Shown: one piece after another, positions 1 through 32,488 of the stretch
How positions within the stretch are numbered: the first letter of the stretch is position 1
Layout: each line of letters starts with the position of its first letter
From: a bacterium
GTDB taxonomy: Bacteria > Elusimicrobiota > Elusimicrobia > UBA1565 > UBA9628
NCBI GenBank assembly: GCA_021783355.1
Contig: JAJXTZ010000008.1
Span: forward strand, 1 to 33,307
Direction: 5' to 3'
Length of the DNA: 33,307 nt
The notes under the pieces: model-generated
Databases searched by the model: none
Seen by the model: only the letters and a program-made list of their open reading frames with translations
What the model was told of the DNA's origin: nothing
Made by a program: the position numbers and the translations under genes

Positions 1-1095
1 AGCGCCGCGGGCGCCGGGGCGCCCGCCGCCGGGGGCGGGGGGGGCGGCGGCGGCGAGGCGGAGCGCAAGCCCTGCTCGGGCAAGAACACGAACATCGCGA
101 TCACCCGCATCATCTGCTCGGTGCTCTCGAAGGCGGGGGACATCGAGCTGGAGCCGCGGACCAACTCGCTGATCGTCACCGACATCCCGGAGGTCTTTCC
201 GCAGGTCGAGCAGGTCATCGCCGAGCTGGACAAGAAGGCGCCGCAGGTCATGATCGAGGCGCAGATCGTCGAGATCGACTCCAACCGCGTCCGCGACCTC
301 GGCTTCGAGTGGGGCGGCACCAACGGCGAACTCGGCACCTTCACCGGCGGCGCCCGCGACACCTCCTTCCCGCTCAACTTGCCGCAGAACCTCAACAACA
401 CGCACTTCTTCGACCCGCTGAACCCGAAGGGCGGCATCATCAGTTCCTTGGGAAGTTCCGGGTCCAGCTCCAGCAGCAGCGGTTCCACGGGGTCCACGTC
501 CTCGAGCAACCTGCTCATCAGCCAGACCGGCTACCTGAAGACGAGCGTCCTGGACCTCTCCCAGCTGAGCATCACGCTGCGCGCGCTGGTGCAGCGCTCG
601 GAGGCCCGCTTCCTGGGCAAGCCCAAGGTCCTGACGATGAACAACAAGACGGCCACCATCGAGATCCAGTCCGACGAGGCGGTCGCCCTGCAGAGCAACC
701 TGACGGCCTCGCAGGGGGCCTCGCAGTCCGTCCAGCAGGCCGAGCGCTTCCCGACGGGCGTGACCCTCAAGGTGACCCCGCAGATCAACAAGGAAGGCTA
801 CATCACGATGCTCCTGGAACCGAGCTTCACCGACGTCCAGGAGGCCGCGATCTCGAGCTCGGCCAACAAGATCTTCAATCCCATCACCCGCAAGGCCAAG
901 ACCATGGTGCGGGTCAAGAACGGCCAGACCTTGGTCCTGGGAGGCTTGCTGCGCTCGACCGAGAACAAGGTCGTGCGCAAGGTCCCGTTCCTCGGCTACA
1001 TCCCGATCGTGGGCTGGCTGTTCACCAGCGTCTCCAACAGCCGGATCAATTCCGACCTGGTCATCTTCATCACCCCGACCATCGTCAGCGACTGA
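1..1095 (+). CDS. Secretin (GspD/PilQ-like) C-terminal portion, truncated at the window start
   Basis: Frame 1 is open from base 1, so the listed start at 121 is internal. Upstream translation is SAAGAGAPAAGGGGGGGGEAERKPCSGKN...; the C-terminus has VPFLGYIPIVGWLFTSVSNSRINSDLVIFITPTIV, typical of the secretin domain. Confidence 0.93.
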   Translation, partial: SAAGAGAPAAGGGGGGGGEAERKPCSGKNTNIAITRIICSVLSKAGDIELEPRTNSLIVTDIPEVFPQVEQVIAELDKKAPQVMIEAQIVEIDSNRVRDLGFEWGGTNGELGTFTGGARDTSFPLNLPQNLNNTHFFDPLNPKGGIISSLGSSGSSSSSSGSTGSTSSSNLLISQTGYLKTSVLDLSQLSITLRALVQRSEARFLGKPKVLTMNNKTATIEIQSDEAVALQSNLTASQGASQSVQQAERFPTGVTLKVTPQINKEGYITMLLEPSFTDVQEAAISSSANKIFNPITRKAKTMVRVKNGQTLVLGGLLRSTENKVVRKVPFLGYIPIVGWLFTSVSNSRINSDLVIFITPTIVSD

Positions 1096-1127
1096 CGGCC
1101 GGTCAGGAATCGCCCAGGACGCCGGGC

Positions 1128-1155
1128 TTGACAACCCCGGGCCGGCGGCTATACT
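1128..1155 (+). promoter_or_regulatory. Sigma70-type promoter for pilB/gspE: TTGACA-N16-TATACT
   Basis: -35 at 1128-1133, -10 at 1150-1155; Shine-Dalgarno AAAGGAGGG at 1163-1171, ATG at 1183. Confidence 0.7.
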
Positions 1156-1182
1156 TCGGTTAAAGGAGGGTAAAAACGCCCC

Positions 1183-2910
1183 ATGTCCCAGTCCTTGGCC
1201 GAGATCCTCGTCACCAGCGGCGTCCTGACCGAGGACCAGCGCGAGAAGGCGCAGAAGGTCGCCAATCAGACGAAGTGCCAGTTCTCCGAGGCGGTGATTA
1301 AGCTCGGCTTCACCAAGGAGGACGACATCGCCGTCGCCCTGTCCAAGCAGCACGGCATCCCGTACGCGTCGCGCGAGAACAAGATCCTCAAGGCCGAGAA
1401 GGGGCAGAGCCTCGAGAAGGTCGTCCCCGAGTCCTACGCGCGCGAGAATTTCCTCCTCCCGCTCTTCCAGGACAACAACGTGCTGGCCGTGGCCCTTTCG
1501 GATCCGGGCAACGTCCTGGTGATGGACAACCTGAAGCTGCTGACCGGGCTGGAGATCCAGCCCTTCATCGCCACCAAGACCCAGATCATCAAGGCCATCG
1601 ACGAGTTCTACTCCAGCGGCAGCATGATTGACCAGACCCTCAACAAGCAGCAGGAGGACGAGGTCGAGGAGGCGCCGCAGGCGGGCGACGAGCGCTTGAA
1701 CCTGGACCAGATCACGGCCGACGCGCAAGGCGCGCAGGCGGTCGGCGTGGTCAACGCGATCCTCAAGCAGGCCATCCAGGAGCGCGCCTCGGACATCCAC
1801 ATCGAGAAGTTCGACGAGCGCATCGCGGTGCGCTTCCGCATCGACGGCACGCTCTACGAGCGCTCGGCCCCGCCGAAGCAGGCCTTCAACGCGATCGTCT
1901 CGCGCCTGAAGATCCTGTCGAAGCTCGACATCGCCGAGCGCCGCCTGCCGCAGGACGGCCAGTTCTCCATCAAGGTCCAGAACCGCATCATCGACCTGCG
2001 CGTCTCCATCTGCCCCTGCGTGTTCGGCGAGAAGGTCGTCATGCGCCTGCTCGACAAGGGCGCCGTGGACCTGGACATCAACAAAATCGGACTGGAGCCG
2101 CGCCAGCGCGACGACATCATCGAGGCCGCCAACAAGCCGCACGGGCTCTTCTTCATGACCGGCCCGACCGGCTCGGGCAAGACCACCACCCTGGGCGCGA
2201 TCCTGAACACCATCAAGAGCCCCGACATCAACATCATGACCATCGAGGACCCGGTGGAGCTCAAGATCGAGGGCATCAACCAGGTGCAGGTGCGCTCCCA
2301 GATCGGGCTGACATTCGCCTCGGCCCTGCGCTCCTTCCTGCGCCAGGACCCGGACGTCATCCTGGTCGGAGAGGTCCGCGACCAGGAGACCGCGCAGACC
2401 TGCCTGCGCGCGGCGCTCACCGGCCATCTGGTGATCTCGACCCTCCACACCAACGACGCGCTCTCCTGCGTGGTGCGTCTCATCGACATGGGCATCGAGC
2501 CGTTCATGCTGGCCAACTCGCTCCAGTTGGCGGCCGGCCAGCGCCTGGTGCGCCTGCTCTGCCCGCACTGCAAGAAGCCGGCCCAGGTGCCGCCGGACGT
2601 GGCCGCCAACGTTGTCAAGGAAGCCTTGCTGGAGACGCCGCCGGATCCGGCCGCCGTCGTCTTCTACGAGTCGCGCGGCTGCGACAAGTGCTCCCGCACG
2701 GGCTACTCAGGCCGCAAGGCCATCTACGAGGTCTACAAGCTCAACGGCGCCATGCGCGAGATCATCTACCGCTATGGCGGCGACATTGGACGGCTGAAGG
2801 CCGCGGCCGAGGAAGCGGGCATGTGGAACATGCGCGCCAGCGGCTTTCGAAAAGTGCTCAACGGGCTGACCACGATCGAGGAGGTCATGTCGGTCACGGT
2901 GGCCGAATGA
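1183..2910 (+). CDS. Type II secretion/type IV pilus assembly ATPase (GspE/PilB)
   Basis: Walker A GPTGSGKTTTLGA, VGEVRDQETA, HTNDA, a CPHC...CDKC zinc-type tetracysteine motif and an N-terminal MshEN-like domain. Confidence 0.96.
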   Translation: MSQSLAEILVTSGVLTEDQREKAQKVANQTKCQFSEAVIKLGFTKEDDIAVALSKQHGIPYASRENKILKAEKGQSLEKVVPESYARENFLLPLFQDNNVLAVALSDPGNVLVMDNLKLLTGLEIQPFIATKTQIIKAIDEFYSSGSMIDQTLNKQQEDEVEEAPQAGDERLNLDQITADAQGAQAVGVVNAILKQAIQERASDIHIEKFDERIAVRFRIDGTLYERSAPPKQAFNAIVSRLKILSKLDIAERRLPQDGQFSIKVQNRIIDLRVSICPCVFGEKVVMRLLDKGAVDLDINKIGLEPRQRDDIIEAANKPHGLFFMTGPTGSGKTTTLGAILNTIKSPDINIMTIEDPVELKIEGINQVQVRSQIGLTFASALRSFLRQDPDVILVGEVRDQETAQTCLRAALTGHLVISTLHTNDALSCVVRLIDMGIEPFMLANSLQLAAGQRLVRLLCPHCKKPAQVPPDVAANVVKEALLETPPDPAAVVFYESRGCDKCSRTGYSGRKAIYEVYKLNGAMREIIYRYGGDIGRLKAAAEEAGMWNMRASGFRKVLNGLTTIEEVMSVTVAE

Positions 2911-2917
2911 GGGCGGA

Positions 2918-2946
2918 TTGACAACCCCCGCCGCCCCTGTTACACT
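2918..2946 (+). promoter_or_regulatory. Sigma70-type promoter for pilC/gspF: TTGACA-N17-TACACT
   Basis: -35 at 2918-2923, -10 at 2941-2946, then gggctaa and ATG at 2954; no Shine-Dalgarno. Confidence 0.7.
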
Positions 2947-2953
2947 GGGCTAA

Positions 2954-4171
2954 ATGGCGCGCTATTCCTATACCGTCCAAGACAGCAAGGGAGAGACCTC
3001 CAGCGGAGCCATCGAGGCCGCCGACGAGAACGAGGCCATCAACGCCCTTCAAGCGAAGGGCTATTTCATCCTCTCCATCAGCTCGGACAAGGGCGGCTCC
3101 GCGGCGGCCAAGAGCGGGGGGGGCGGCGGCAAGGTCGCCGTCCGAGATCTGGTCTTCTTCGCCGAACAGTTGGCCACCCTGCTCAACGGCGGCGTCCCGC
3201 TGGTGCGCGCGCTCTCGCTGCTGGGAGAGAACTCCGGCTCCAAGGGCCTGCAGTTCGCGCTGGCGCAGGTGACCAAGGACGTGGCCAGCGGCACGGCGCT
3301 CTACAAGTCGCTGGAGAAGCATCCCAAGGTCTTCGACACGCTGTGGGTGTCGCTGGTCCAGGCCGGCGAGATGGGCGGACAGCTGCCCAAGGTGCTCAAG
3401 CAGATCAGCTCGTACCTGGCCTCGCAGGCGGAGCTCCAGGGCAAGATCATCACGGCGCTGGCGTACCCGGGCGTGCTGATGACGATCTCCATGGGCGTGC
3501 TGATATTCTTCATCGTCAAGATCGTTCCGGTCTTCGCGGACATCTTCAAGAGCTTCCAGGTCAAGCTCCCGCCGCTGACGGCGGTCATCATCGTCTTCTC
3601 CAACATCCTCGTCCACCACCTGGCGGGCCTGATCATGACCATCGCGGCCACCTATTTCGCCTGGACCGCCTACACGTCCACGGAGGCCGGCCAAGAGACC
3701 AAGTGGAAGATGATCTTCAGCGTCCCGTTTTTCGGGGACTTCGTGAAGAACATCCTGGTCGAGCGCCTGCTGACCACCCTGTCCACGCTGATCGAGTCGG
3801 GCGTCAGCATCTTGAACGCGATCTCGGTGCTGGAAGGCGTCTTCGCCACCAACGTCATCTTCAAGCGCGTGATGGGCGCGGTCAAGAACGACGTGGCCAG
3901 CGGCAAGTCCATCTCGGCGTCGTTTAAGAAGACCGGGGTGCTGCCCAACCTAGTCACCGAGATGATGTTCATGGGCGAGGAGTCGGGGAAGCTCCCGGAC
4001 ATGCTGGTGACGCTCTCCGGCTTCTACAAGGAGCAGATCGACCAGTTCACGCGGCGCTTCAACGCCATCATCGAACCGATGATGGTCGTGGGCATCGGAG
4101 CCATCGTCGGCGTGATCGTGCTGGCCGTGTTCATGCCGATCTTCAAGCTGTCCACGATGGGGGGCCACTGA
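2954..4171 (+). CDS. Type II secretion/type IV pilus inner-membrane platform protein (GspF/PilC)
   Basis: Two repeated GspF-like domains (FAEQLATLLNGGVPLVRAL; VERLLTTLSTLIESGVSIL) and hydrophobic segments. Confidence 0.95.
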   Translation: MARYSYTVQDSKGETSSGAIEAADENEAINALQAKGYFILSISSDKGGSAAAKSGGGGGKVAVRDLVFFAEQLATLLNGGVPLVRALSLLGENSGSKGLQFALAQVTKDVASGTALYKSLEKHPKVFDTLWVSLVQAGEMGGQLPKVLKQISSYLASQAELQGKIITALAYPGVLMTISMGVLIFFIVKIVPVFADIFKSFQVKLPPLTAVIIVFSNILVHHLAGLIMTIAATYFAWTAYTSTEAGQETKWKMIFSVPFFGDFVKNILVERLLTTLSTLIESGVSILNAISVLEGVFATNVIFKRVMGAVKNDVASGKSISASFKKTGVLPNLVTEMMFMGEESGKLPDMLVTLSGFYKEQIDQFTRRFNAIIEPMMVVGIGAIVGVIVLAVFMPIFKLSTMGGH

Positions 4172-4710
4172 TGAACCTCCGAGACCGCCGCGGCTACACG
4201 CTGATCGAGCTGGTCGTCGTGATTCTGATCATCGGCATCCTGGCCTCCATCGCCGTGCCGCAGTACCTGCGCACGATGGAGAGCAGCAAGGCCGACGACG
4301 CGGTGGCGACCGTCAACATGATCGGCACCACCAACAAGATGTTCGCGCTGGATCACGGCGGCTATTACGTCAGCGGGAAGTTCACCGCGTCCTGCGGCCA
4401 GCCCAGCCCCACCACCTATTGCGATCAGGTCGGCGTCGGGCTCGCCTATCCTCCGCCGTTCACCAACCCCTGCGTGCTCGTCTGGTGCCGGTACCTCGCC
4501 GACCAGGACTGGGCCAGCAAGCCGTACGACTTTTACGCCTGCGACGGGGCCACCACCGGGACCTGCGCCGGCCAGGGCTCCACCTATCAGGTCTCCGGCG
4601 CCTCGCGCAAGTCCACCGCGTACGCTCCCTACAACACCTGGGCCTACACGATGACCACGTCCGGGGTGATCACTCCATATGGGACGACCGCGCCGACGCC
4701 GACCTATTGA
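4171..4710 (+). CDS. Type IV prepilin / GspG-like major pseudopilin, cysteine-rich
   Basis: RGYTLIELVVVILIIGILASIAVPQYL prepilin signature; 1-bp overlap with the upstream gene (TGATG); six Cys in the mature domain. Confidence 0.92.
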   Translation: MNLRDRRGYTLIELVVVILIIGILASIAVPQYLRTMESSKADDAVATVNMIGTTNKMFALDHGGYYVSGKFTASCGQPSPTTYCDQVGVGLAYPPPFTNPCVLVWCRYLADQDWASKPYDFYACDGATTGTCAGQGSTYQVSGASRKSTAYAPYNTWAYTMTTSGVITPYGTTAPTPTY

Positions 4711-5200
4711 GCGCCGCGCCGCCTCCGGCTACACGCTGGTGGAGGTCGTGGTGGCCGTGCTCATCTCGGCCATCATGGTGACCGCGGTCTTCAGCACCGC
4801 GCTGACCTCCAAGACCAGCACCGGCAAGAGCGACCGGCGCCTGATCGCGTCCCAAGCGGCGCGCGACATGACCTCCCGGCTGCGCCAGTTCGTCACCGGC
4901 TGCGGCTGCGCCGCCGACAACACTTGCCCCGCGCCCGGCTGCACGGACATCCTGGGCCCCACCAACCGCGCCGGCTCGGCCAGTTGGTACATGAACGACC
5001 CCGGGGGCTCTCCGTCGGTCGTGGACAGCCAGGGCGACAAGTGGGCCCTCTCCTGCGGCGCGCACACCATCACCGGGCTCCTCCCGTCTTGGTTCGAGGC
5101 CGCCCCGTACAACGCCAAGATCGTGTACACCGTGAGCAACTGCGCCGGCGGCGACACTCCCCCGATGGTGTCGGTCAGCGTCCCCTGGACGGAACCGTGA
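4679..5200 (+). CDS. Minor prepilin-like protein (GspI/PilV-like position)
   Basis: ASGYTLVEVVVAVLISAIMVTAVFSTAL; overlaps the preceding gene by 32 bp; six Cys. Confidence 0.85.
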   Translation: MGRPRRRRPIERRAASGYTLVEVVVAVLISAIMVTAVFSTALTSKTSTGKSDRRLIASQAARDMTSRLRQFVTGCGCAADNTCPAPGCTDILGPTNRAGSASWYMNDPGGSPSVVDSQGDKWALSCGAHTITGLLPSWFEAAPYNAKIVYTVSNCAGGDTPPMVSVSVPWTEP

Positions 5201-5895
5201 GGACGCCCCGCTCCCGCGCCGGCTACACCCTGATCGAGCTCGTCATCGCGATCTCGCTGGCCTCCATCGTCCTGGTGGGCCTGTTCGCGATCATGGCCTC
5301 GATGATGAACTTCCAGGTGGAGGCCCTCAAGAAGGGGACCGTCAACGGCTGGTCCCTGGCCGCCCTGCTGTCGATGAATCGGGAGATCGAGGACGCCAGC
5401 GTCATCGTCTACCCGAGCGCCGGCGGCAGCGCCAATTCGATTAGTCTCTGCACCAACTACTCTCACATCATGGCGGGAGCGGGAGGCTCCGCCGACGGCA
5501 GCATCTCCGGCGCGGCCTCCGACCCCATCCAGACCATCGACTACTGCTACGACCCCGCCAACCTGGTGATGCGCCGCCAGGTGATCGACGGGTCCTGCCC
5601 GGTGCTGGGCTCCGCGCCTCCCGCCTGCACGGCATCCAACTACGCGCCCGGCGCCCAGCAGGACACCAAGACCAGCGGCGTCATCGCCATCAGCGTCTAT
5701 CAGGCCCCCGGCAACCCCAGCGTGTTCACGCGCTCCGCGAACCGTTCCGGGGAGATACGCCTCCGGTACGTGATCGGCAATCCCAACTCCACCACGACCC
5801 CATCCCCGGGCTCGGCGATGGTGCGCAACCCGCAATCCATGGCTTTCGACACCACCTTGAGCGTGAACAGGCAATATGGGAACAACCAGGACTGA
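5197..5895 (+). CDS. Minor prepilin-like protein (GspJ/PilW-like position)
   Basis: GTG start at 5197 overlapping the upstream TGA (GTGA); RAGYTLIELVIAISLASIVLVGLFAIM. The ORF-track start at 4924 lies deep inside the previous gene and is unlikely. Confidence 0.85.
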   Translation: MRTPRSRAGYTLIELVIAISLASIVLVGLFAIMASMMNFQVEALKKGTVNGWSLAALLSMNREIEDASVIVYPSAGGSANSISLCTNYSHIMAGAGGSADGSISGAASDPIQTIDYCYDPANLVMRRQVIDGSCPVLGSAPPACTASNYAPGAQQDTKTSGVIAISVYQAPGNPSVFTRSANRSGEIRLRYVIGNPNSTTTPSPGSAMVRNPQSMAFDTTLSVNRQYGNNQD

Positions 5896-6247
5896 ACGAG
5901 GGAGGCGCGGGAGCGTGCTCCTGCACGTGCTGGTGACGGGGGCCGTCGTGGCCCTGATCGCGGCCAGCCTCCTTCGACTGGCCACCCTGCGCTACCAGGT
6001 GACCGCCCGGGCCCAGCAGGCCACCGTCGAGCGCCGCTCCGACGAAGGCGCCATGGCGCGCATCATCTCCGCCTGGAACGCCGCCAACCAGAACTGCACG
6101 GCCGTGCCGGGCTACTCCGTCAGCGGCTCGGCCGGCAGCTGTTCCTGCACCTTGAACCCCTCGAGCTCCGGCGACCCGACGGTCACCGCGTACATGAGCG
6201 GCGGGAACTGCACGCTCAAATTGGTCTCCAGCGACTCGATGCATTGA
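5876..6247 (+). CDS. Small terminal prepilin-like protein lacking Glu5 (GspK/PilX-like position)
   Basis: RRGSVLLHVLVTGAVVALIAASLLRLATLRYQ N-terminal helix, last in the prepilin series; 20-bp overlap with the previous gene. Confidence 0.7.
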   Translation: MGTTRTERGRRGSVLLHVLVTGAVVALIAASLLRLATLRYQVTARAQQATVERRSDEGAMARIISAWNAANQNCTAVPGYSVSGSAGSCSCTLNPSSSGDPTVTAYMSGGNCTLKLVSSDSMH

Positions 6248-7032
6248 GCGGCAAAGCCCTCATCGTCAACGCCGACGACTTCGGCGACAATCCCGCCGTC
6301 AACGAGGCGGTCCTGCGCGCCTACCGGCATGGCGTCCTGCGCTTCGCGAGCCTGATGGTCCTGCGCCCGGCCGCCGCCGCGGCCGCCCGCCTCGCCACGG
6401 AGAACCCGGGCCTGGGCGTGGGCCTGCACCTGGAGCTGTGCGCGGACGCGCCGCAAGAAGCCGGCCTGCGCTACTTCTTCAGCCCCAAGGCCCGCGCCGG
6501 CCTGGAGGGGGAGATCCGCCGCCAGATCGAGGCCCTGCTGGCCTTCGGGATCGCGCCCACGCACGTGGACGGCCACATCAACGTCCACGTCCATCCCGTG
6601 GTCTTCCCGGTCCTGTGCCGGCTGGCGCGCGAGTACCGCATCCCGCGCGTGCGCCTGCCCTCCGGCGAGATCGGGCCCAGCCTCTCCTGCCCGGACCTGG
6701 AGCCGGTCACGCCGCGCCTGGCGCTGGCCGGCGTCTTCGGCGCGATGGGCGCCTGGGTGCGCCCCGCGGCCGGCGGGCTGCAGGTCCCGGCCACCTGGGG
6801 CCTCCTGCGCTCGGGCCGCATGAGCGAGGACTACGTCGTCTGGCTGCTGGGGCGGCTCCCGGAGGGCGTCACCGAGCTCTACTTCCACCCCAGCGCTGAC
6901 CCGGCGACCGCAATCCCGGACGGCCGGCCGACCCCCAGCCACCAGAGCTGGTCGGAGCTTCAGACTCTGCTGAGCCCGAGGGTGGCCGCCGCGCTGGAAG
7001 AGTCCGGGGCGCGGCTCGTCTCGGCGCGTTAA
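6244..7032 (+). CDS. hpnK: YdjC/ChbG-family deacetylase, HpnK-like
   Basis: TTG start overlapping the upstream TGA (TTGA); ALIVNADDFGDNPAVNEAV, GLHLEL, HVDGHINVHVHP; lies next to hpnL/I/J-like genes. Confidence 0.78.
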   Translation: MSGKALIVNADDFGDNPAVNEAVLRAYRHGVLRFASLMVLRPAAAAAARLATENPGLGVGLHLELCADAPQEAGLRYFFSPKARAGLEGEIRRQIEALLAFGIAPTHVDGHINVHVHPVVFPVLCRLAREYRIPRVRLPSGEIGPSLSCPDLEPVTPRLALAGVFGAMGAWVRPAAGGLQVPATWGLLRSGRMSEDYVVWLLGRLPEGVTELYFHPSADPATAIPDGRPTPSHQSWSELQTLLSPRVAAALEESGARLVSAR

Positions 7033-8000
7033 GCCGAGGCCGCCGTCTTGCGGCGCTGATGAAGGGCGTACATGCCCAGCCCCGCCGCGGCCCAGCAGAG
7101 CTCGCGCACGTGTCGGACGACGCCGAGCGTGAAGCCGGATTCGGCGCGCAGGCCCAGCGCGGCGAAGATGGCGGCCTTGCCGGCCTCCTGGGTGCCGACC
7201 TTCGCGGGGACCCAGAAGGCGAGGGCGTCCACCAGGTTCGACAGGAACTCGATCGAGAGGGCCGTCATCGGGCCGACGCCCAAGCCCAGGAAGTGGCAGA
7301 TCAGCCAGACCTCGGCGGCACCCCAAGTGTAGCCCAGCATGAAACAGGAGATCGAGCCGAAGAAGCGGCCCGGGTGGCGGACCAGGTAGCGCTTGAGCAG
7401 CTCTCGCACCGGGGCGCTGGATTCCACGGCCTTTGGGAAGCGGCGGTGGAGCCACTCCGGGGGCCGCATCAAGAGCAGCGCCACGCCCAGCGTGATGCCG
7501 AACAGGATGCCGCCAACGCCGAATGCGCCCAAGGTCGCCTCGCGGCCGCCGAAGGCGAAGAGCTTCGCGTGCAGCAGGTAGCCGATGCCGCTCAGGATGA
7601 AGAAGGCCTGGCCGACGGACTGGGTGACCTTGGCGACCAGGACGCTGGTCACCTTGACCTCGTGCGGCAGGTCGCTGCGCATCATCCCCGGCCGGACGAA
7701 CTCGCCGCCCATCTGGGCGCTCGGGGTCAGGTAGTTGACGCCGTCGCCGGCGATGCGCACGCGCACCAGGTCCCAGAAGCGGGCGCGCGGGGCGCTCTCG
7801 GGGGGGAAGGCCAGCTTCCACGCCGAGGCGTTGAGCATGTGGTCGAAGATCTGGAACGGAAGCAGGACCGCGAAGCCCCAGCCGAAGGCCTCCAGGTGGC
7901 GCCACACGCGCCGGGGGTCGAAGGTCCACAGCAGGTACAGGAAGGTCGCCGCGCCCAGGACGAGGACGACCCGCGTGAATTGGGTCTTCAGGCGGCTCAT
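7029..8000 (-). CDS. hpnL: Lysylphosphatidylglycerol synthase TM-family membrane protein, HpnL-like
   Basis: Polytopic protein with FLSNLVDALAFWVPAKVGTQEAGKAAIFAALGL, typical of the LPG_synthase_TM/UPF0104 fold; adjacent to hpnI/hpnJ-like genes. Confidence 0.72.
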   Translation of the reverse strand: MSRLKTQFTRVVLVLGAATFLYLLWTFDPRRVWRHLEAFGWGFAVLLPFQIFDHMLNASAWKLAFPPESAPRARFWDLVRVRIAGDGVNYLTPSAQMGGEFVRPGMMRSDLPHEVKVTSVLVAKVTQSVGQAFFILSGIGYLLHAKLFAFGGREATLGAFGVGGILFGITLGVALLLMRPPEWLHRRFPKAVESSAPVRELLKRYLVRHPGRFFGSISCFMLGYTWGAAEVWLICHFLGLGVGPMTALSIEFLSNLVDALAFWVPAKVGTQEAGKAAIFAALGLRAESGFTLGVVRHVRELCWAAAGLGMYALHQRRKTAASA

Positions 8001-8007
8001 CGCGCCC

Positions 8008-9231
8008 TTAAGGCTCGACCGCGGCGGGACGCGAGAGCTTCGCCGGGAACGGCGTCAGGCGCCCGTGAGGCTGGACGTCGTAGGTCTGGCCGCGCCAGAC
8101 CACCTGGGTGGAGCTCCACGCGGCGACCCACGCCGCGAAGGCGAACCACTCGCTGAGCGGGATCAACCACAGCGCGCGCAAGGGCTGGCGGCCGCCCAGG
8201 TCGCGGCTGAGCGACGCGCTGGCGGCTGCCTTCGCGGCCCACAAGGCCGCGAGCAGGAAGAGGGAGACGCGGTCGGGTCCCAGGAGCAGGACCTTCAGCG
8301 ACAGCAGGGAGAAGCCGTGCTGGATCAGGGAGGCGGCGTAGCCGGCCGGCTGGCAGACGCGGATGGTGCGGGCCCAGCGGGTCAGGTGCTTGAAGTGCTC
8401 CGGGCCGCTCCTGATGTCGGGGACGGTCTCCACCACGGCGTCGCAGAGCTCCAGGCGCCAGCCGGCCTCGCGCACGGACTCGCCCAGCCAGAAATCGTCG
8501 GCCAGATGATCGGCCAGGTTGGCGAAGCCGCCGGACTCGTCGAGGGCCCGGCGGCGGACCATCATCGCCGCGCCCATCGCGAAGCGCATGCCGAAGGCCG
8601 CCGCGCACAGCGCCTGAGGCAGGAAATGGGCGTTGATCGACAGAGCCTCCATCAGCCCCCACGGCCCGCGCGAGCCGATGGCCTCATAGAAGGCGGTGGT
8701 CATCCCCACGCCGGGGTCGGCGAAGGGAGCGGCCATGCGTTGGAGCAGGTCCGGGCGCGCACGGACGTCCGAGTCCGACATCAGCAGGAGGTCGTACTTG
8801 GCGAACGGGTACGCGTTGGCCATGTTGTTGACCTTGGGGTTGTAGCCGATGCGGTTCATGGAGACCACGATCTCCATGTCCACGCCGGGGAAGTCGCGCT
8901 TGAGCCGCGTGACCGCGCCCAGGGCCGGGTCGTCCGGGGACTGCAGGCAGAAGAGGATCTGCCAGCACGGATAGTCCTGGCGGCAGAAGCTCGCCAGGTT
9001 CTCGTACAGGGCGCCCTCGTCGCCCTTGAGCGGCTTGATGACGGTGACCGGCGGCAGCGACGCCGGACGCGGGCGGGAGCGCAGGCGGCGCAGGAGGCCG
9101 CGACCGGCGATCGCCGCGGCGGCCGCGAACAGGAGCGCGAAGAGCCCCGTCGCCGGCGCCGCGACGGACAGCACGGCCCATCCGGCCCTCGCGGCCGCGA
9201 GCATCATCCGCCCGCCGATCGGCAAGCGCAT
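8008..9231 (-). CDS. hpnI: Glycosyltransferase (GT21/ceramide glucosyltransferase-like), HpnI-like
   Basis: PPVTVIKPLKGDEGALYENLASFCRQDYP, NPKVNNMANAYPFAKYDLLLMSDSDVR, LADDFWLGESVREAGW. The start at 9231 (MRLPIGG) is preferred to 9285, which lies inside the hpnJ-like ORF. Confidence 0.8.
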   Translation of the reverse strand: MRLPIGGRMMLAAARAGWAVLSVAAPATGLFALLFAAAAAIAGRGLLRRLRSRPRPASLPPVTVIKPLKGDEGALYENLASFCRQDYPCWQILFCLQSPDDPALGAVTRLKRDFPGVDMEIVVSMNRIGYNPKVNNMANAYPFAKYDLLLMSDSDVRARPDLLQRMAAPFADPGVGMTTAFYEAIGSRGPWGLMEALSINAHFLPQALCAAAFGMRFAMGAAMMVRRRALDESGGFANLADHLADDFWLGESVREAGWRLELCDAVVETVPDIRSGPEHFKHLTRWARTIRVCQPAGYAASLIQHGFSLLSLKVLLLGPDRVSLFLLAALWAAKAAASASLSRDLGGRQPLRALWLIPLSEWFAFAAWVAAWSSTQVVWRGQTYDVQPHGRLTPFPAKLSRPAAVEP

Positions 9232-9238
9232 CGCACGC

Positions 9239-10723
9239 TCAGGCGGCGACCGGCTCCTTCTTCTCTCCGGACTTCGCGGGGGCAACGGCCACGCGGGAGA
9301 CGGCCGGGGCCTGGCGCCCGCGCAGGTAGTCCAGGAACTCCTTGCCCTCGCGCAGGCGCCGGCGGCGCTCGACGGGGTCCTTGGCCATCGCCTTGAGCAT
9401 GCGCAGGATCGGCGTCGGGCGCGCGTAGAACTTGGAGTAGAAGCGCTTGACGCCGGCCTCGATGTCGGGGGCCTTCAGGTGGGGGTACTGGATGGCCGAG
9501 GCCTGCGTGCCGTCGTTGCGGACCAGCAGCGTCTCGTCGTACCATTTGTTGCTCATCGCCTGGCGGTAGAGCTCGGTGCCGGGATAGGCGGCGGCCAGCG
9601 AGACCTGGATGGTGTCCACGTTCAGGGCGCAGGCGAACTTGATGGACTCCTCGATGGTCTCCTTGGTCTCGCCCGGCAGGCCCAGGATGAAGGTGCCGTG
9701 GATGACGATGCCGAGCGCCCGGCAGTTCTTGGTGAACTCCTTGGCGATGTCGACGCGCACGCCCTTCTTGATGTTGTTGAGGATGGTCTGGTTGCCGGAC
9801 TCGTAGCCGACGAGCAGCAGCCGCAAGCCGTTCTCCTTGAAGGTCTTCAGATACTCGTAGGGGACGTTCGCGCGGCTGTTGCACGACCAGGTGATGCCGA
9901 GCTTGCCCAGGCCCTTGGCGATCTCCGCCGCACGCGTCAGGTCGGCCGTGAAGGTGTCGTCGTCGAAGAAGAACTCCTTGACCTGCGGGAACATCTCCTT
10001 GGCGCGCGCCATCTCGGCGATGACCGCCTGGGCCGACTTGGTGCGGTAGACGTGGCCGCCGACGGTCTGGGGCCACAGGCAGAACGAGCAGCGCGCCGGG
10101 CAACCGCGGCCCGTGTACAGGGACAGGTACGGGTGCTTCAGGTAGCCGATGTAGTAGTTCTCGATCTTGAGGTCGCGCTTGTAGACGTCCAGCACCGACG
10201 GCAGCGCGTCCATGTCTCCAATCAGGGACCGGTCCGGGTTGTGGACGATGCCGCCGTCCTTGCGGTAGGACAGGCCGGCGATCTCCTCATACGGGCGACC
10301 CTCCGCGACTTCCTTCAGGGTGAAGTCGAACTCCTCGCGGCCGACGAAATCCAGCACCGGCGCGGCCTTCAGCGACTCCTCGGGCAGGACCGCCACGTGC
10401 GCGCCGACGAAGCCGATGCGCATCTCCGGGTTCTGGGCCTTCAGCGCCTGGGCCACCTTGGCGTCGTTGTCGAAGGAGGGGGTGGAGGTGTGAATCACGC
10501 ACAGCTCGAAGCCGCGGGCCCGGCGCAGGACCTCCTCGAGGTCCAGATCGTCGGCGGGCGCGTCGATGAGCTTGGAATTGGGGATCAGGGCGGCGGGCTG
10601 GGCCAGCCAGGTGGGAAACCAGAAGGACTTGATTTCGCGGCGGGCCTGGTAGCGGGCGCCGGCTCCTCCGTCGAAGCCCTCAAAAGAGGGGGGGTTCAGG
10701 AACAGCGTGCGCATGGTGGCCAT
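9239..10723 (-). CDS. hpnJ: B12-binding/radical SAM protein, HpnJ-like
   Basis: MRTLFLNPPSFEGFDGGAGARYQARREIKSFWFPTWLAQPAALIPNSKLIDAPADDL N-terminus and GRGCPARCSFCLWPQTVGGHVYRTKS (CxxxCxxC). The alternative start at 10714 is possible. Confidence 0.85.
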   Translation of the reverse strand: MATMRTLFLNPPSFEGFDGGAGARYQARREIKSFWFPTWLAQPAALIPNSKLIDAPADDLDLEEVLRRARGFELCVIHTSTPSFDNDAKVAQALKAQNPEMRIGFVGAHVAVLPEESLKAAPVLDFVGREEFDFTLKEVAEGRPYEEIAGLSYRKDGGIVHNPDRSLIGDMDALPSVLDVYKRDLKIENYYIGYLKHPYLSLYTGRGCPARCSFCLWPQTVGGHVYRTKSAQAVIAEMARAKEMFPQVKEFFFDDDTFTADLTRAAEIAKGLGKLGITWSCNSRANVPYEYLKTFKENGLRLLLVGYESGNQTILNNIKKGVRVDIAKEFTKNCRALGIVIHGTFILGLPGETKETIEESIKFACALNVDTIQVSLAAAYPGTELYRQAMSNKWYDETLLVRNDGTQASAIQYPHLKAPDIEAGVKRFYSKFYARPTPILRMLKAMAKDPVERRRRLREGKEFLDYLRGRQAPAVSRVAVAPAKSGEKKEPVAA

Positions 10724-10827: not shown

Positions 10828-11850
10828 ATGAAGCCCCTGCGGACCCCGGCCACCCTCCTGGCCCTCCTGCTGGCCGCGTCGGCGGCCGCCGCAGACGGCT
10901 TCGCCAGCTTCGCCTCCGACGGCGGGGGCCAAGCCTGGCGGGAGACCCTGACCCCGCATTTCACCATCCACCACCAGACCGTCTGGCTCCCGCCGGGGCT
11001 CACGATGGGCGTGGAGAAGGTCCATTTCCGCCTGGAGATGGACCTGGGGATGTTCTCCAGCTGGCCGTCCAAGGGCCGCATCAACTTCTACCTGTACAAG
11101 GACCTACAATCCTACGAGGCCGGGGAATTCCATCCCCCGGCCTGGTCCAACGGCCTGGCCGTCTACGACCGCAACGCGGTGGCAATCCCGGCGATGAAGA
11201 AGACCTCTCAGATCCTGCGCGTCTTCGCCCACGAGACCACCCACCTGGTGTTCGTCAACTACTTCCACGAGGCGCACCGCGACCCGCCCAATTGGCTCAA
11301 CGAAGGCCTAGCCATGCTGGAGGAGGCCCCGTCCCCGGACCGCCCCCAGGCCTCGCAGTGGTACCAGAACATGGTGGCCATGGACCCCGCGAAGTGGTTC
11401 CCCATGGACGCATTCTTCCGAACCTCCCCGATGCGCGACCTGGGCAACGACAAGGGCCGCGTGGCCGTCTTCTACATCCAGGCGTATTCGATCGTGCAGT
11501 TCCTGGTCCGCCAGCATTCGCGCCTGCAGTTCAAGGCCTTCTGCTCGGACCTGCGCGACGGCCTGAGCGCTGCGGAGGCCTTGCGCTTGGTCTACCACTA
11601 CCGCTCGCCGCAGGAGTTCGAGAAGCGCTGGCGTCAGTGGCTGGCCGACCCCGTGCACAAGCGCCGCGTGGCGGCCCTGGCTCCCGGCGAGGTCTCCAGC
11701 GGCGACGGGGTGATCGACCGGGCCGGCGGCCCCGGCTCGGCGGGGGCCTTCGGCGGGTTCTCCAACAGTTTCTCCAAGGGCTGGGAGATCAAACCCCGGA
11801 TGGTCTTCCCCACGAAGGCCTCGGCCCCGGCCCCGGGCGCTTCCGAGTAG
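10828..11850 (+). CDS. Secreted peptidase MA-like (gluzincin) metalloprotease
   Basis: Signal-peptide-like N-terminus; VFAHETTHLVFVNY (HExxH) followed by NWLNEGLAMLEE. Confidence 0.75.
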   Translation: MKPLRTPATLLALLLAASAAAADGFASFASDGGGQAWRETLTPHFTIHHQTVWLPPGLTMGVEKVHFRLEMDLGMFSSWPSKGRINFYLYKDLQSYEAGEFHPPAWSNGLAVYDRNAVAIPAMKKTSQILRVFAHETTHLVFVNYFHEAHRDPPNWLNEGLAMLEEAPSPDRPQASQWYQNMVAMDPAKWFPMDAFFRTSPMRDLGNDKGRVAVFYIQAYSIVQFLVRQHSRLQFKAFCSDLRDGLSAAEALRLVYHYRSPQEFEKRWRQWLADPVHKRRVAALAPGEVSSGDGVIDRAGGPGSAGAFGGFSNSFSKGWEIKPRMVFPTKASAPAPGASE

Positions 11851-22523: not shown

Positions 22524-24509
22524 TCAGCCGCCCAGGAAGGCGGTCAGGCGCACGGCGGCGAAGGACAGCGCGTAGGCCAGGACGAAGAGCGCGGAGAACT
22601 GGATCGCGGGCCATTTCCAGCCCCCGGTCTCGCGGCGCACCATCGCGATGGTGGACACGCACTGCAGGGCGACGGCGAAGAAGACCAGCAGGCCCGCGGC
22701 GGTGGCCAGACCGTAGCGCGCGCTTCCGTCCGGGCGGCGCGCCTCGCGCAGCTCGCGGATCAGACCCCGGTCGGCGCCGGGCTCGCGGCCCATCGCGTAG
22801 ATGGTGCCCAGCGTCCCCACGAAGACCTCGCGCGCGGCCAGAGACGACATCACGGCCACCGAGACGCGCCAGTCCCAGCCCAGCGGGCGGAACGCCGGCT
22901 CCACGGCCCGCCCGGTCATGCCCAGGAAGCTGCCCCGGATGCGCGCCGCGGCCTCGCGGCGGGACAGCGCCTCCAGGCGCGCGTCGCGGTCCGCGGAGGC
23001 CGGCTCCAGGCGCAGGGCGGCCTCCCGGGCCTGCAGCGGCGCCAGCAGGCGCGCGTCGCGCGGGTAGGAGGCCATCGCCCACAGCACGAGGCTGACCAGG
23101 AAGATCACCTGGCCGGCGCGCGTCAGGAAGTGCTTGCAGCGGGTCCACACGTAGCGGGCCAGCTCCCGTGGCTGGGGAACGCGGTATGGAGGGAGCACCG
23201 TCACCGGCGACGGGTAAGCCTCGTAGAGGCGCGTCCACTTCAGCGCCAGGGCGAGCAGGAGGGCCAGGACCACGGCGAAGGCGTACATCCCGGCCATCAC
23301 CACGCCGCGGCCGTCCAGGCCCAGGGGCCGGAAGGTCTCCGGGACGAAGGCGGTGATGATCAGCGTGTAGACCGGCAGGCGCGCGGAACAGGTCATCAGC
23401 GGGGTGAGGAGCGTCGCCACCAGCCGGCGTTTCTCGCTGGCGATGGTGCGCGCGGCCATCACGCCCGGGATCGCGCAGGCGAAGCCGGAGAGGAACGGGA
23501 TGAAGACCTTCCCGTCCAGGCCGAAGGGGCGCAGCGCCCGGTCCACCATGGCCCCGGCGCGCGGGAGGTAGCCGCTCTGCTCCAGCGCGCCGATCAGCGT
23601 GAAAAGGATCGCGATCTGGGGCACGAAGACCACCACCGCCGAGATTCCGGGGATGGCGCCGTCGCACAGGAAGCTGGCCAGGACGCCGTCGGGCAGGCGA
23701 GCGCGCAGGGCGGCGGCGCCGGCGGCGAGGACGCCCGAGAACAGGTCCATCAGCGGCTGGGCCCAGGAGAACAGGGCCTGGAAGAGCAGGAACATGGTCG
23801 CGGCCAGAATCAAGGGGCCGGCCACGGGGTGGAGCAGGACGCGGTCGATGCGGATGGAGCGCGACAGCGTGGGCAGGATCACGCGCGGGGGCTGGGTCAC
23901 GCCGGCCGCCAGGGCGCGCTCGCCGTCGGCCACGGCCCGGGCCTGCAGGTCGCGCAAGGAGCGCTTGGATGCCGCGCGGAAATCCAACGTCGCGGAGAGG
24001 TCCGGGCGCGCGGGGCGGGGGCGCAGCAGCCGCAGCACCGCATCCAGGCCCTCGCCCTTGCGCGCGGAGACCAGGACCACGGGCATCCCCAGGGACGCGG
24101 ACAGCGCGCCGGCGTCCACGCGGACCCCGTTGAGGCGGGCCTCGTCGATCATGTTGACGACCAGGGCGGCCGGGTAGCCCGCGGCTTTGAGGCCCGCGGC
24201 CAGGGCCAGGCAGTTGGACAGGTTGCTCGCCTCGCCGACGCAGAGAACCAGGAGATCGTCGCCCGCGCGCGCGCGCTCGGACAGGAAGCGGAAGGAGACC
24301 CGTTCGTCCTCGGTCTCCGGCAGGAGGGAGTGGGTGCCGGGGAGGTCCACGACCTCCAGGTCCTCGCCCGCCACGGTGAGGGCCCCCGTGGCCTTCTCCA
24401 CGGTGCAGCCGGCGAAGTTGCCCACGCGCTGGCGCAGGCCGGTCAGGGCGTTGAACAGCGTCGTCTTGCCCGTGTTCGGCCGGCCCGCCAGGGCGATTAC
24501 CCGGCTCAC
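22524..24509 (-). CDS. feoB: Ferrous iron transporter FeoB
   Basis: GRPNTGKTTLFNALTG, DLPGTHSL, NMIDEARLNGVRVD; Gate domains and multiple TMs. Confidence 0.96.
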   Translation of the reverse strand: MSRVIALAGRPNTGKTTLFNALTGLRQRVGNFAGCTVEKATGALTVAGEDLEVVDLPGTHSLLPETEDERVSFRFLSERARAGDDLLVLCVGEASNLSNCLALAAGLKAAGYPAALVVNMIDEARLNGVRVDAGALSASLGMPVVLVSARKGEGLDAVLRLLRPRPARPDLSATLDFRAASKRSLRDLQARAVADGERALAAGVTQPPRVILPTLSRSIRIDRVLLHPVAGPLILAATMFLLFQALFSWAQPLMDLFSGVLAAGAAALRARLPDGVLASFLCDGAIPGISAVVVFVPQIAILFTLIGALEQSGYLPRAGAMVDRALRPFGLDGKVFIPFLSGFACAIPGVMAARTIASEKRRLVATLLTPLMTCSARLPVYTLIITAFVPETFRPLGLDGRGVVMAGMYAFAVVLALLLALALKWTRLYEAYPSPVTVLPPYRVPQPRELARYVWTRCKHFLTRAGQVIFLVSLVLWAMASYPRDARLLAPLQAREAALRLEPASADRDARLEALSRREAAARIRGSFLGMTGRAVEPAFRPLGWDWRVSVAVMSSLAAREVFVGTLGTIYAMGREPGADRGLIRELREARRPDGSARYGLATAAGLLVFFAVALQCVSTIAMVRRETGGWKWPAIQFSALFVLAYALSFAAVRLTAFLGG

Positions 24510-24739
24510 GGCGCCTCGGGCTCCACGCGGATGCGCTTGAGCAGCCGCCGCTCCAGGGCCAGCAGCTGGGGCCCGACCAGGCAGGCCACCGGGTCGCGCA
24601 GGGGAGTGGGCATCAGCTTGGTCACCACGGTCCCCGGGCGCAGGCCCAAGCCGGAGAGGCGCGCGCGCTCGGTCTCGTCGATCGCGACGAGGTCCACGAT
24701 TCGCACCGGGACCTCCAGCGCCGCCTGGTCGAGCGTCAT
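24506..24739 (-). CDS. feoA: FeoA family protein
   Basis: 77-aa ORF MTLDQAALEVPVRIVDLVAIDETERARLSGLGLRPGTVVTKLMPTPLRDPVACLVG; 4-bp overlap with feoB. The 478-aa ORF in the track starts far upstream and is unlikely. Confidence 0.88.
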   Translation of the reverse strand: MTLDQAALEVPVRIVDLVAIDETERARLSGLGLRPGTVVTKLMPTPLRDPVACLVGPQLLALERRLLKRIRVEPEAP

Positions 24740-24745
24740 GGGGCC

Positions 24746-24774
24746 ATTATACCCTTGTTGAGACCACATTTCAA
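24746..24774 (-). promoter_or_regulatory. Near-consensus sigma70 promoter for feoAB: TTGAAA-N17-TATAAT
   Basis: Minus strand: TTGAAA TGTGGTCTCAACAAGGG TATAAT GGCCCC ATG, with the start codon 6 nt after the -10. Confidence 0.75.
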
Positions 24775-24777
24775 TAA
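24755..24777. promoter_or_regulatory. Imperfect palindrome overlapping the feoA -35/spacer, candidate operator
   Basis: TTGTTGAGA-ccaca-TTTCAATAA; arms pair at 7 of 9 positions (core TTGA-N9-TCAA). Confidence 0.4.
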
Positions 24778-24793
24778 GAGCGGCCGGCGGTTT

Positions 24794-24802
24794 TGGTATC
24801 AT
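24794..24802 (+). promoter_or_regulatory. Extended -10 element TGGTATCAT upstream of the TPR gene
   Basis: TG-N-TATCAT followed by 6 nt (cgccgc) and ATG at 24809. Confidence 0.4.
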
Positions 24803-24808
24803 CGCCGC

Positions 24809-25888
24809 ATGACCCGCGACCCCTTCGCCCCGCTGGAAACCGCACGCGACCGACTCGATGCGGGGCGCCCGGACCTGGCCCTGGCCGCCCTGGCCGCCCG
24901 CGCCCCGGCCGCGACCGCGGGCGAAACCGCCTTCTTGCGCGCCGAGGCCCTGCGCGCCCAGGGCTACTTCCGCCGCGCGCAGGCCGCCTACCGCGAGGCC
25001 CTGCGGCGCCTGGGGCGCGAGGACCGCGACCTGGCGCTGGAGGCCGAGCTGGGCCTGGCCCGCTGCGCGCGCAGCCTGGGTGAGACCGGAGACGCGCGCC
25101 GCGCGATGTCGCGCGCCCGCGCGCTGGCCCCGCGGGACTCGGCGGAGGCCGCCGAGTCCCTGGCCCTGGAGGACGCGCTGGTGGAGCGCGCCGCGGGCCG
25201 CTATTTGAAGGCGCTGACCGCCTTGGCGCCGCTGCTGGCCGCCTCCCGCCGCCGGCGGGACTGGTCGGCCGTCGGCTTCGTTTTGTGGGCGACCGGCGGG
25301 GCGCGGCGCTTCTCCGGCGACCTGGCCGGCTCCCACCGCGACTTCAAGGAGTCTTTGGCCGCCTTCCGGCGCGCCGGCGACCGGGAGGGGCAGGCCTACG
25401 CCCTGTTCGGCCTGGGCGGGATCGCGCGCGTGCGCGGCTTCTTCGCCGAGGCCCGCGCCGCGTACGCCGCCGCGAGGACGATCCTCTCCGGCGGCCCCGA
25501 CCTCTTCGGCCGCGCCTACGCCCACTGCGGCCTGGCCAACGTCCTGCGCCAGCTCGGGCGCTGGTCCGAGGCCGAGCGCCACTACCGCCGCTCCTACGCG
25601 CTGTACGCGGGCCTCGACGACCGCGTGGACCTGGCCTACGTGGACTGGGGGCTGGGTCAGGTGCATCTCAAGCGCGGCGAGCTTCCCGCCGCCGAGCGCC
25701 GCCTGCGCGCCGCGCTGGCCGCCTTCTCGGCCGCCCGCGAGGCCCGCGGCGTCGCCCTGTCGCGCCAGTCGCTGGCCCAGGTCCTGCACGCGCGCGGCCG
25801 CACCGCCGAGGCGGAGCGCCTTTTCGACGCCGCAGTGCGGGGAGCCCGCGCCGCCGGCCTGCACGCGCACCTCGAGATCTACACCTGA
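24809..25888 (+). CDS. Tetratricopeptide-repeat protein
   Basis: Alanine-rich helical repeats such as RAYAHCGLANVLRQLGRWSEAERHYRRSYALYAGL and LAYVDWGLGQVHLKRGELPAAERRLRAALAAF. The ATG at 24809 is preferred over the track start at 24755. Confidence 0.8.
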   Translation: MTRDPFAPLETARDRLDAGRPDLALAALAARAPAATAGETAFLRAEALRAQGYFRRAQAAYREALRRLGREDRDLALEAELGLARCARSLGETGDARRAMSRARALAPRDSAEAAESLALEDALVERAAGRYLKALTALAPLLAASRRRRDWSAVGFVLWATGGARRFSGDLAGSHRDFKESLAAFRRAGDREGQAYALFGLGGIARVRGFFAEARAAYAAARTILSGGPDLFGRAYAHCGLANVLRQLGRWSEAERHYRRSYALYAGLDDRVDLAYVDWGLGQVHLKRGELPAAERRLRAALAAFSAAREARGVALSRQSLAQVLHARGRTAEAERLFDAAVRGARAAGLHAHLEIYT

Positions 25889-25900
25889 CCCGCGCGTAAC

Positions 25901-25919
25901 AATCCCGAAACGCGGGATT
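25901..25919. repeat. Perfect inverted repeat (7-bp arms, 5-nt loop)
   Basis: AATCCCG-aaacg-CGGGATT between the TPR gene and the 55-aa ORF. Confidence 0.6.
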
Positions 25920-25933
25920 CGTAGTCTGTCCCC

Positions 25934-26101
25934 ATGGGACAAGCGATCTGGGGCGTGCTCGCGAGCTATCGCGGGGTGTGGGTGGCGGTGGACCGCGACG
26001 GCAAGGCGCTCGACGCCGACCCCGATTTGGCGGCGCTGAAGGCGCGCTCGCCGCGCGCCGGGACCTTCCTCTTCGCCTGCGGCGAGGAGGTCAGATCGTG
26101 A
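25934..26101 (+). CDS. Small 55-aa protein, possibly DUF5678-like
   Basis: MGQAIWGVLASYRGVWVAVDRDGKALDADPDLAALKARSPRAGTFLFACGEEVRS. Absent from the supplied track, whose shortest entries are 60 aa; the pattern Y.G.WVAVD.DGK resembles DUF5678 by eye. Confidence 0.5.
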   Translation: MGQAIWGVLASYRGVWVAVDRDGKALDADPDLAALKARSPRAGTFLFACGEEVRS

Positions 26102-26810
26102 AGTCCTGGCCCAGGTAGAGCTCGCGGGCCTTCGGATCCTCCAGCAGCTGCTGCCCGCTCCCCTCGAACTGGATGCGGCCGTCGTAGATCAGGTAGGCGC
26201 GGTCGATGATGGGCAGGGTCTCGCGGACGTTGTGATCGGTGATCAGCACCCCGATGCCCTGGCCGACGAGCTTGCGGATGATGGCCTTGAGCTCGCCGAC
26301 GGTGATCGGGTCGATGCCGACGAAGGGTTCGTCGAGCAGGATCAGCTTGGGGTCGCGGATCATCGCGCGGGCGACCTCCAGCCGGCGCTTCTCGCCGCCG
26401 GACAGGGTCCACGCCTTCTGCCGGCGCAGCTCCCACAGGCCGAACTCCTCGAGCAGCGCCTTGACCCGGCGCATCTGCTCCAGGCGCCCGGGCACCGTGC
26501 GCTCCAGCACCGCGCGCAGGTTCTCCTCGACGGTCAGGCCCTTGAAGACGGTGGGCTCCTGGGCCAGGTAGCCCAGGCCGCGGCGCGCGCGGGCGTACAT
26601 CGGGTCGCGGGTCACGTCCTGGCCGTCGATCATCACCGCCCCTTCCTCCGGGGTGATGAAGCCGGCCAGGCTGTAGAAGGTGGTGGTCTTGCCGGCGCCG
26701 TTGGGGCCCAGCAAGCCCACGATCTCCCCGGAGTCCACGCGCAGGGACAGGCCCTTGACCACCATGCGCTCGCCGTAGGTCTTGCGGATGTCCCGGGCTT
26801 CCAATCTCAT
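26091..26810 (-). CDS. lptB: LPS export ABC transporter ATP-binding protein
   Basis: MRLEARDIRKTYGERMVVKGLSLRVDSGEIVGLLGPNGAGKTTTFYSLAGFI, TLSGGEKRRLEVARAMI, LLDEPFVGIDPI. Start placed at 26810. Confidence 0.95.
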   Translation of the reverse strand: MRLEARDIRKTYGERMVVKGLSLRVDSGEIVGLLGPNGAGKTTTFYSLAGFITPEEGAVMIDGQDVTRDPMYARARRGLGYLAQEPTVFKGLTVEENLRAVLERTVPGRLEQMRRVKALLEEFGLWELRRQKAWTLSGGEKRRLEVARAMIRDPKLILLDEPFVGIDPITVGELKAIIRKLVGQGIGVLITDHNVRETLPIIDRAYLIYDGRIQFEGSGQQLLEDPKARELYLGQDFTI

Positions 26811-27505
26811 TTCGCCAGCTCCTTGATGCGGGACGGATCCGCGAAGAACAGCCAGCCCGTCACCCCGCCGCGGGCCACGATGCGGCGGGGGGACTCGGTC
26901 GCCTCCACCTCGTCGGCCTTCAGCGCGGTGGTCCATTCGCCCTCGACCTTCTTGAGCACCGGGCGGCCGCCGCGCAGGACCAGGCGGCGCCCCGCGCGCT
27001 CGTAGGTCGCGGAGTCCGCCCACGCCTCCAGGCGCGGCCCCCAGACGCGGGCGCGGCCGCTCAGGGTCGCCGTGCGCTCGTCCTTCCAGTCCAGGCGCAG
27101 GCCCTCGCCCTGGTCGGGCGCGGCGCCGGGCTGCTCGCGCGTGAAGGTCACCAGCCCTCCGGCCGGGGGCATCAGCGTGCCGGACCGGGAGACCTCGTCG
27201 TAGCGCGCGGACCCGCCGCGGGCCGTGACGGTCTCGCCGTCCGAGAGCTCGCGGCGCAGGACCACCCGCCCGCGCGCGCGCCAGACCCGCTGCGCGTGAC
27301 GGTAGAGCGCCCAGTCCGCCGCCAGGTGCGTGCCCGCGGCGTCATAGCGCACGTCGCCCTTGAACTCCTCCTCGCGGTCCTTGCCCCGGCGGACGATCCA
27401 CTCGCGGCTGCGCACCACGGAGCCGGCGGCCGCGGACCGGCCCGCGGAGGGCGCGGGAACGGCGGCGGCGGCGGTCGCCGCGGCGAGCAGGAGGGGCAGG
27501 ATCAT
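26807..27505 (-). CDS. lptA: LptA/OstA-like periplasmic LPS transport protein
   Basis: Signal-peptide N-terminus, OstA-like beta repeats (FKGDVRYDAAGTHLAADWALY; LVLRGGRPVL), between lptC- and lptB-like genes. Confidence 0.75.
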   Translation of the reverse strand: MILPLLLAAATAAAAVPAPSAGRSAAAGSVVRSREWIVRRGKDREEEFKGDVRYDAAGTHLAADWALYRHAQRVWRARGRVVLRRELSDGETVTARGGSARYDEVSRSGTLMPPAGGLVTFTREQPGAAPDQGEGLRLDWKDERTATLSGRARVWGPRLEAWADSATYERAGRRLVLRGGRPVLKKVEGEWTTALKADEVEATESPRRIVARGGVTGWLFFADPSRIKELAK

Positions 27506-28008
27506 CGCGCCGGCCCGGTCAGCACCGAGCGCTGATGGTAGACGCGGATCTCGGTCAGGTCGGGCGAGGCGTCCAGCCCTTGGCCGCGCATCACGCCGCC
27601 GGGCCGGGTCACGACGACCGGGGCGTCGGTGTGGAAGCGCCCGGTCTTGGCGGTGTAGAGGAGCTCGTCGGTGGTCAGGCGGGAGCGGTCGTCGAAGGAG
27701 TCCAGCTCCACCGAGCTGGAGAGCTTGACGTCCCGGGTGGCGGTGTCCACGGCCCCCTTGCGGGCCGTCACGCGCGAGACCGCCTTGCCGTCGCGGTAGA
27801 ACTCCATCACCGGCGCGTCCAGGTCGGCGGCGTGGTCCTCCTCGCGCAGGATGGCCAGCCGCGAGCGCAGGGTCCAGGCGGGCTTGCCGTCCTGGGACTG
27901 GCTCAGGGTCAGGCCCTCGACCGCCTCGCTGCGCTCCTCGCGCGGCGGTTCGCGCCGCGGCGAGCAGGCGCCGGCCAGCAGGAGCGCGGCCAGGGCGGCC
28001 GTCCTCAC
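27502..28008 (-). CDS. lptC: LptC-like lipoprotein
   Basis: GTG start; lipobox-like LLLAGAC; SQDGKPAWTLRSRLAILREEDHAADLDAPVMEFYRDGKAVSRVTARKGAVD. Confidence 0.75.
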   Translation of the reverse strand: MRTAALAALLLAGACSPRREPPREERSEAVEGLTLSQSQDGKPAWTLRSRLAILREEDHAADLDAPVMEFYRDGKAVSRVTARKGAVDTATRDVKLSSSVELDSFDDRSRLTTDELLYTAKTGRFHTDAPVVVTRPGGVMRGQGLDASPDLTEIRVYHQRSVLTGPAR

Positions 28009-32475: not shown

Positions 32476-32488
32476 CGTCGGATGGGGA

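Follow-up and report, generated by a model that had tools for sequence, protein, structure and literature searches.

A predicted cyclitol-ether hopanoid module with a short-loop HpnK in an uncultured Elusimicrobiota bacterium

Hopanoids such as the cyclitol ether serve as environmental and geological markers. The route to the cyclitol ether of bacteriohopanetetrol (BHT) was characterized in Burkholderia cenocepacia (Schmerk et al, 2015, as cited in PMC12583986 and PMC5462960): HpnI makes BHT-N-acetylglucosamine (BHT-GlcNAc), HpnK deacetylates it, and HpnJ forms the cyclitol ether (PMC12583986; PMC5462960), which is how an earlier note on the DNA analyzed here had described these roles for Burkholderia. 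All of hpnI, hpnK, and hpnJ are present in 31 of 36 alphaproteobacterial cyclitol-ether producers, and the roles of HpnL and HpnA are not established in published work (PMC12583986; PMC5462960). In Mycetohabitans rhizoxinica, hpnI, hpnJ, hpnK, and hpnL lie side by side on one strand (NC_014718), and an hpnL-like gene is nearby in Paraburkholderia as well. The same four genes adjoin each other in the stretch of DNA studied here. Compared with the B. cenocepacia route, it encodes the same three enzyme families, with HpnI and HpnJ above curated cut-offs, but its hpnK is convergent with the other genes and belongs to a run of secretion genes, its HpnK is a short-loop variant, and its host is a member of the Elusimicrobiota. 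For this phylum, neither a hopanoid report nor lipid data were found in the literature covered by our incomplete search, which consisted mostly of titles and the beginnings of abstracts. Judged from its genes, the set appears to be a normal hopanoid cyclitol-ether module with a derived HpnK.

The window, that is, the whole stretch analyzed (33,307 bases), is the entire contig C17 of a fragmented metagenome-assembled genome (MAG; 260 contigs, 91% complete, 2.7% estimated contamination). Families were assigned using the curated cut-offs of NCBIfam, with Pfam as a second profile set. The four adjacent genes of the HpnK, HpnL, HpnI, and HpnJ families that the earlier note had placed between 6244 and 10723 were confirmed: each protein matched its respective family best, Pfam concurred (YdjC for HpnK, LPG_synthase_TM for HpnL, glycosyltransferase 21 for HpnI, and radical SAM plus B12-binding for HpnJ), and GC content by codon position supported all four as genes. 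hpnK (6244-7032, plus strand) is convergent with hpnL, hpnI, and hpnJ (7029-10723, minus strand), and the four do not constitute one operon. Rather, hpnK is the end of a run of genes for a secretin, the T2SS ATPase GspE, GspF, and pseudopilins (121-6247, plus strand), apart from hpnJ-hpnI-hpnL. The genes of this run are not hopanoid genes; they are conserved in nine relatives and provided a synteny anchor for the squalene-hopene cyclase gene, shc. On the other side, a gene of the peptidase-MA family (10828-11850, plus strand; PF13485) adjoins hpnJ and is followed by uvrA, with the same position in relatives. Farther along (22524-33241) comes a run of LPS/Kdo genes, which fits a diderm cell. 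It comprises FeoB, a FeoA-domain ORF, LptC, a protein of the KDO8P/DAHP synthase family, CTP synthase, a cytidylyltransferase resembling KdsB, and a PfkB kinase.

HpnJ (9239-10723, minus strand), a radical SAM enzyme with a B12-binding domain, matched TIGR03471 over positions 1-471 of 472 with 768.9 bits (cut-off 577.6). It contains the radical SAM motif CxxxCxxC (CPARCSFC at residue 208) and is ∼60% identical to HpnJ of Burkholderiaceae. Identity as HpnR was rejected, at only 68 bits. In a tree of 101 sequences, with Paraburkholderia and Mycetohabitans standing in for B. cenocepacia, which the collections used did not include, HpnJ of Elusimicrobiota (that of the window among them) formed one group within a clade of HpnJ from Burkholderiaceae, Acetobacteraceae, and Verrucomicrobiota. 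The HpnJ-like B12-radical-SAM paralogues of the phylum fell outside this clade on long branches, separated by a branch with 99% support. The window protein is thus placed in the true HpnJ clade, and not in a nonhopanoid radical SAM family, an outcome that the earlier note had named as speaking against its reading. One genome, G165, encodes a second HpnJ above the cut-off (L047, on its contig C29), which is 48% identical to that of the window and joins the clade at its base by a long branch; the in-place copy of this genome is likewise divergent.

HpnI (8008-9231, minus strand), a family-2/21 glycosyltransferase, reached 368 bits against TIGR03472 (cut-off 310) and has the motifs DSD and DDFWLG. 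The open reading frame as called extends to 9285 and overlaps hpnJ; the ATG at 9231, which gives a protein of 407 residues, is probably the start. HpnL (7029-8000, minus strand) is a polytopic membrane protein of the LPG-synthase-TM/flippase-like superfamily. Its match to TIGR03476 covered positions 5-314 of 318 and stayed below the cut-off (140 bits versus 195.65), no other family scored better, and PF03706 was matched with 95.7 bits. The predicted model is all-helical (pLDDT 92), and a fold search with it returned weak matches to the MprF flippase domain only (best E 0.018, that is, ∼0.02; TM 0.5-0.6); unlike MprF, HpnL has no synthase domain. From the superfamily and this weak match, our guess is that HpnL may carry out a lipid transfer or flipping step.

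As the earlier note had remarked, squalene-hopene cyclase, HpnG, and HpnH are not encoded in the window, nor is hpnCDE found on its 33,307 bases. This absence weighs little because the window is exactly one contig, and the core genes are out of view because that contig ends early. A family-wise profile search of the contigs of the MAG recovered them elsewhere in the genome, which supports the first of the two options that the earlier note had left. A genome lacking shc, which the earlier note had said would refute a hopanoid role, is not what this search showed. Contig C155 carries shc (741 bits, cut-off 431; DIDDTA, corresponding to the DxDDTA motif), hpnH (505 bits, cut-off 225; CxxxCxxC motif), hpnA (464 bits), an hpnG-like gene, and genes for farnesyl diphosphate synthase and IspH; between the last two lies a dxs-like reading frame recognized by eye only. 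hpnC-hpnD-hpnE, all above their cut-offs, are on contig C2. The HpnG-like protein scored 62 bits, below the cut-off of 187.1, and also matches futalosine hydrolase and the nucleoside-phosphorylase family; its gene adjoins hpnA in this genome and in relatives. The profile search did not yield an HpnN transporter above the cut-off. In a MAG of 260 contigs with an estimated contamination of 2.7%, such core genes might have come from another organism. That origin is extremely improbable: the copies of shc and hpnH on C155 share 66-88% identity with those of relatives, which have both genes on the same contig as the module, and one conserved locus is matched on one side by C155 and on the opposite side by the window.

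This locus is found on single contigs in nine relatives, in the order hpnJ-hpnI-hpnL, hpnK, pseudopilins, gspF, gspE, secretin, gap, and shc-hpnH-hpnA, usually with hpnG and ispA after hpnA (the contig of G161 stops inside hpnH). The module lies 15-31 kb from shc, and G127 alone of the nine lacks hpnK at the syntenic place. Eight of the nine show a distance of 5.6-5.9 kb between the secretin gene and the homologue of the leftmost gene of C155. Because the window starts in the secretin gene and C155 in that other gene, the two contigs should abut across ∼5 kb, which would put shc ∼8-9 kb to the left of base 1 and ∼15 kb from hpnK. Two observations on shc in other genomes were made in passing. 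In G292, a single contig of 3.8 Mb, the locus is intact except that shc, hpnH, and hpnL are each broken into pieces (L070-L071), probably owing to long-read errors, and G127 encodes a second, divergent squalene-hopene-cyclase-like protein (C15, 31817-33730; 293 bits, below the cut-off).

Co-occurrence was assessed across 295 genomes of the phylum. HpnJ exceeded the cut-off in 34 of them, and 33 of these 34 also contained shc, the exception being G182, a 93% complete MAG; among the 261 genomes without HpnJ, shc was present in 15 (Fisher test, p ∼6e-31, which overstates the evidence because the genomes are related). hpnI adjoins hpnJ in every one of the 34, as judged from gene positions. Outside these genomes, HpnJ matches reach at most ∼410 bits, below the cut-off; such HpnJ-like B12-radical-SAM proteins are widespread in Elusimicrobiota without shc (L154-L168). 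Their existence, together with the divergence of HpnK and HpnL and the place of hpnK within a secretion run, might suggest that HpnI, HpnJ, and HpnL were recruited to modify a different, nonhopanoid lipid or glycan, the shc genes being incidental. Against this, HpnJ above the cut-off is confined almost entirely to genomes with shc, it falls in the HpnJ clade instead of with the paralogues, and the linkage to shc-hpnH-hpnA is fixed. A different lipid, the second option of the earlier note, is therefore very unlikely, and the core genes of the genome, the co-occurrence, and the HpnJ tree make it unnecessary.

The identity of the genes, the core genes carried by the same genome, the linkage seen in relatives, and the co-occurrence together argue that the module is a hopanoid side-chain set, which very probably makes BHT cyclitol ether. 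By analogy with the characterized homologues, hpnCDE, shc, hpnH, the hpnG-like gene, and possibly hpnA would provide the hopanoid skeleton and its tetrol side chain. HpnI would then transfer N-acetylglucosamine onto bacteriohopanetetrol, HpnK would remove the acetyl group from BHT-GlcNAc, and HpnJ would, as the last step, convert the glucosamine into the cyclitol ether by rearrangement. HpnL might transport the product, either across a membrane or from one membrane to another.

The least conventional member of the set is HpnK (262 residues), a predicted N-acetylglucosamine deacetylase of the YdjC/ChbG fold. Its gene starts with TTG and overlaps by 4 bp with the stop codon of the gene in pseudopilin position upstream. 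HpnK scored 198.3 bits against TIGR03473, below the cut-off of 232.6, with model positions ∼65-87 missing, and 173 bits against PF04794; no other family fitted better. The predicted model (pLDDT 93.8) resembles ChbG (7vi8) and other YdjC structures (2i5i, 8jqe), with TM about 0.68-0.69, but unlike these chitooligosaccharide deacetylases, the protein scores best as HpnK (198 bits versus 93 for the ChbG model). The missing stretch amounts to ∼21 residues that would directly follow the GLHL strand of the metal site. Canonical HpnK carries a conserved loop at this point, and HpnK of M. rhizoxinica, 38% identical to that of the window, contains this loop. Across 34 sequences, the metal-site aspartates and histidines of YdjC (D11, D12, H62, H107, H111, H117, and H215) are invariant. 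At the same genomic place, the HpnK loop is shortened in sister family f2 and full in f3 (G270), whose protein passes the HpnK cut-off, and the in-place proteins form one separate clade (support 100/98). This series at one locus and the single clade make loss of the loop in place the most likely course.

The in-place gene is absent from G127 and G238, both of which contain a canonical hpnK above the cut-off elsewhere, adjoining a second hpnI. On the HpnJ tree, the two genomes group together in one nested clade (99/96), so the pattern likely reflects one replacement event and supports the notion that both types of HpnK perform the same step, although a single event is statistically weak. In G301 (73% complete), the canonical hpnK-hpnI pair was present and a short hpnK was not found. 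With the score of the short HpnK under the cut-off, its functional equivalence rests on its position, its metal-site residues, and the exchange observed in G127 and G238. The position in a pseudopilin run, the separate clade, the missing loop, and the low score would also be compatible with a pilin- or glycan-related deacetylase, in which case the pathway would stop early, with an end product that is not the cyclitol ether but, for example, BHT-GlcNAc. This is unlikely given that the in-place gene of f2 and f3 retains the loop partly or in full (and passes the cut-off in f3), that its loss in G127 and G238 coincides with a canonical hpnK, a pattern to be expected of two proteins with the same role, and that all metal-site residues are kept. 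Deacetylation of BHT-GlcNAc by the short HpnK accordingly stays our preferred assignment, as a predicted one. Its substrate could differ because the loop beside the metal site is absent. It is doubtful that the loopless enzyme, linked to the secretion and pseudopilin run, has an altered hopanoid glycoconjugate as its substrate or works at another site of the cell, leading to a cyclitol-ether variant unseen in Proteobacteria. The short HpnK provides a natural test of the role of this active-site-adjacent loop.

From its gene content, an entire Elusimicrobiota family, represented here by metagenomes alone (from groundwater, permafrost, and similar sources according to their records), appears able to make the cyclitol ether, which would widen the list of its possible sources. 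In sister family f2, three genomes (G225, G211, and G273; L182, L183, and L184) contain hpnI, hpnK, and shc and no HpnJ above the cut-off, with hpnI of G273 on a different contig end. The gene content of these three predicts BHT-glucosamine as the end product.
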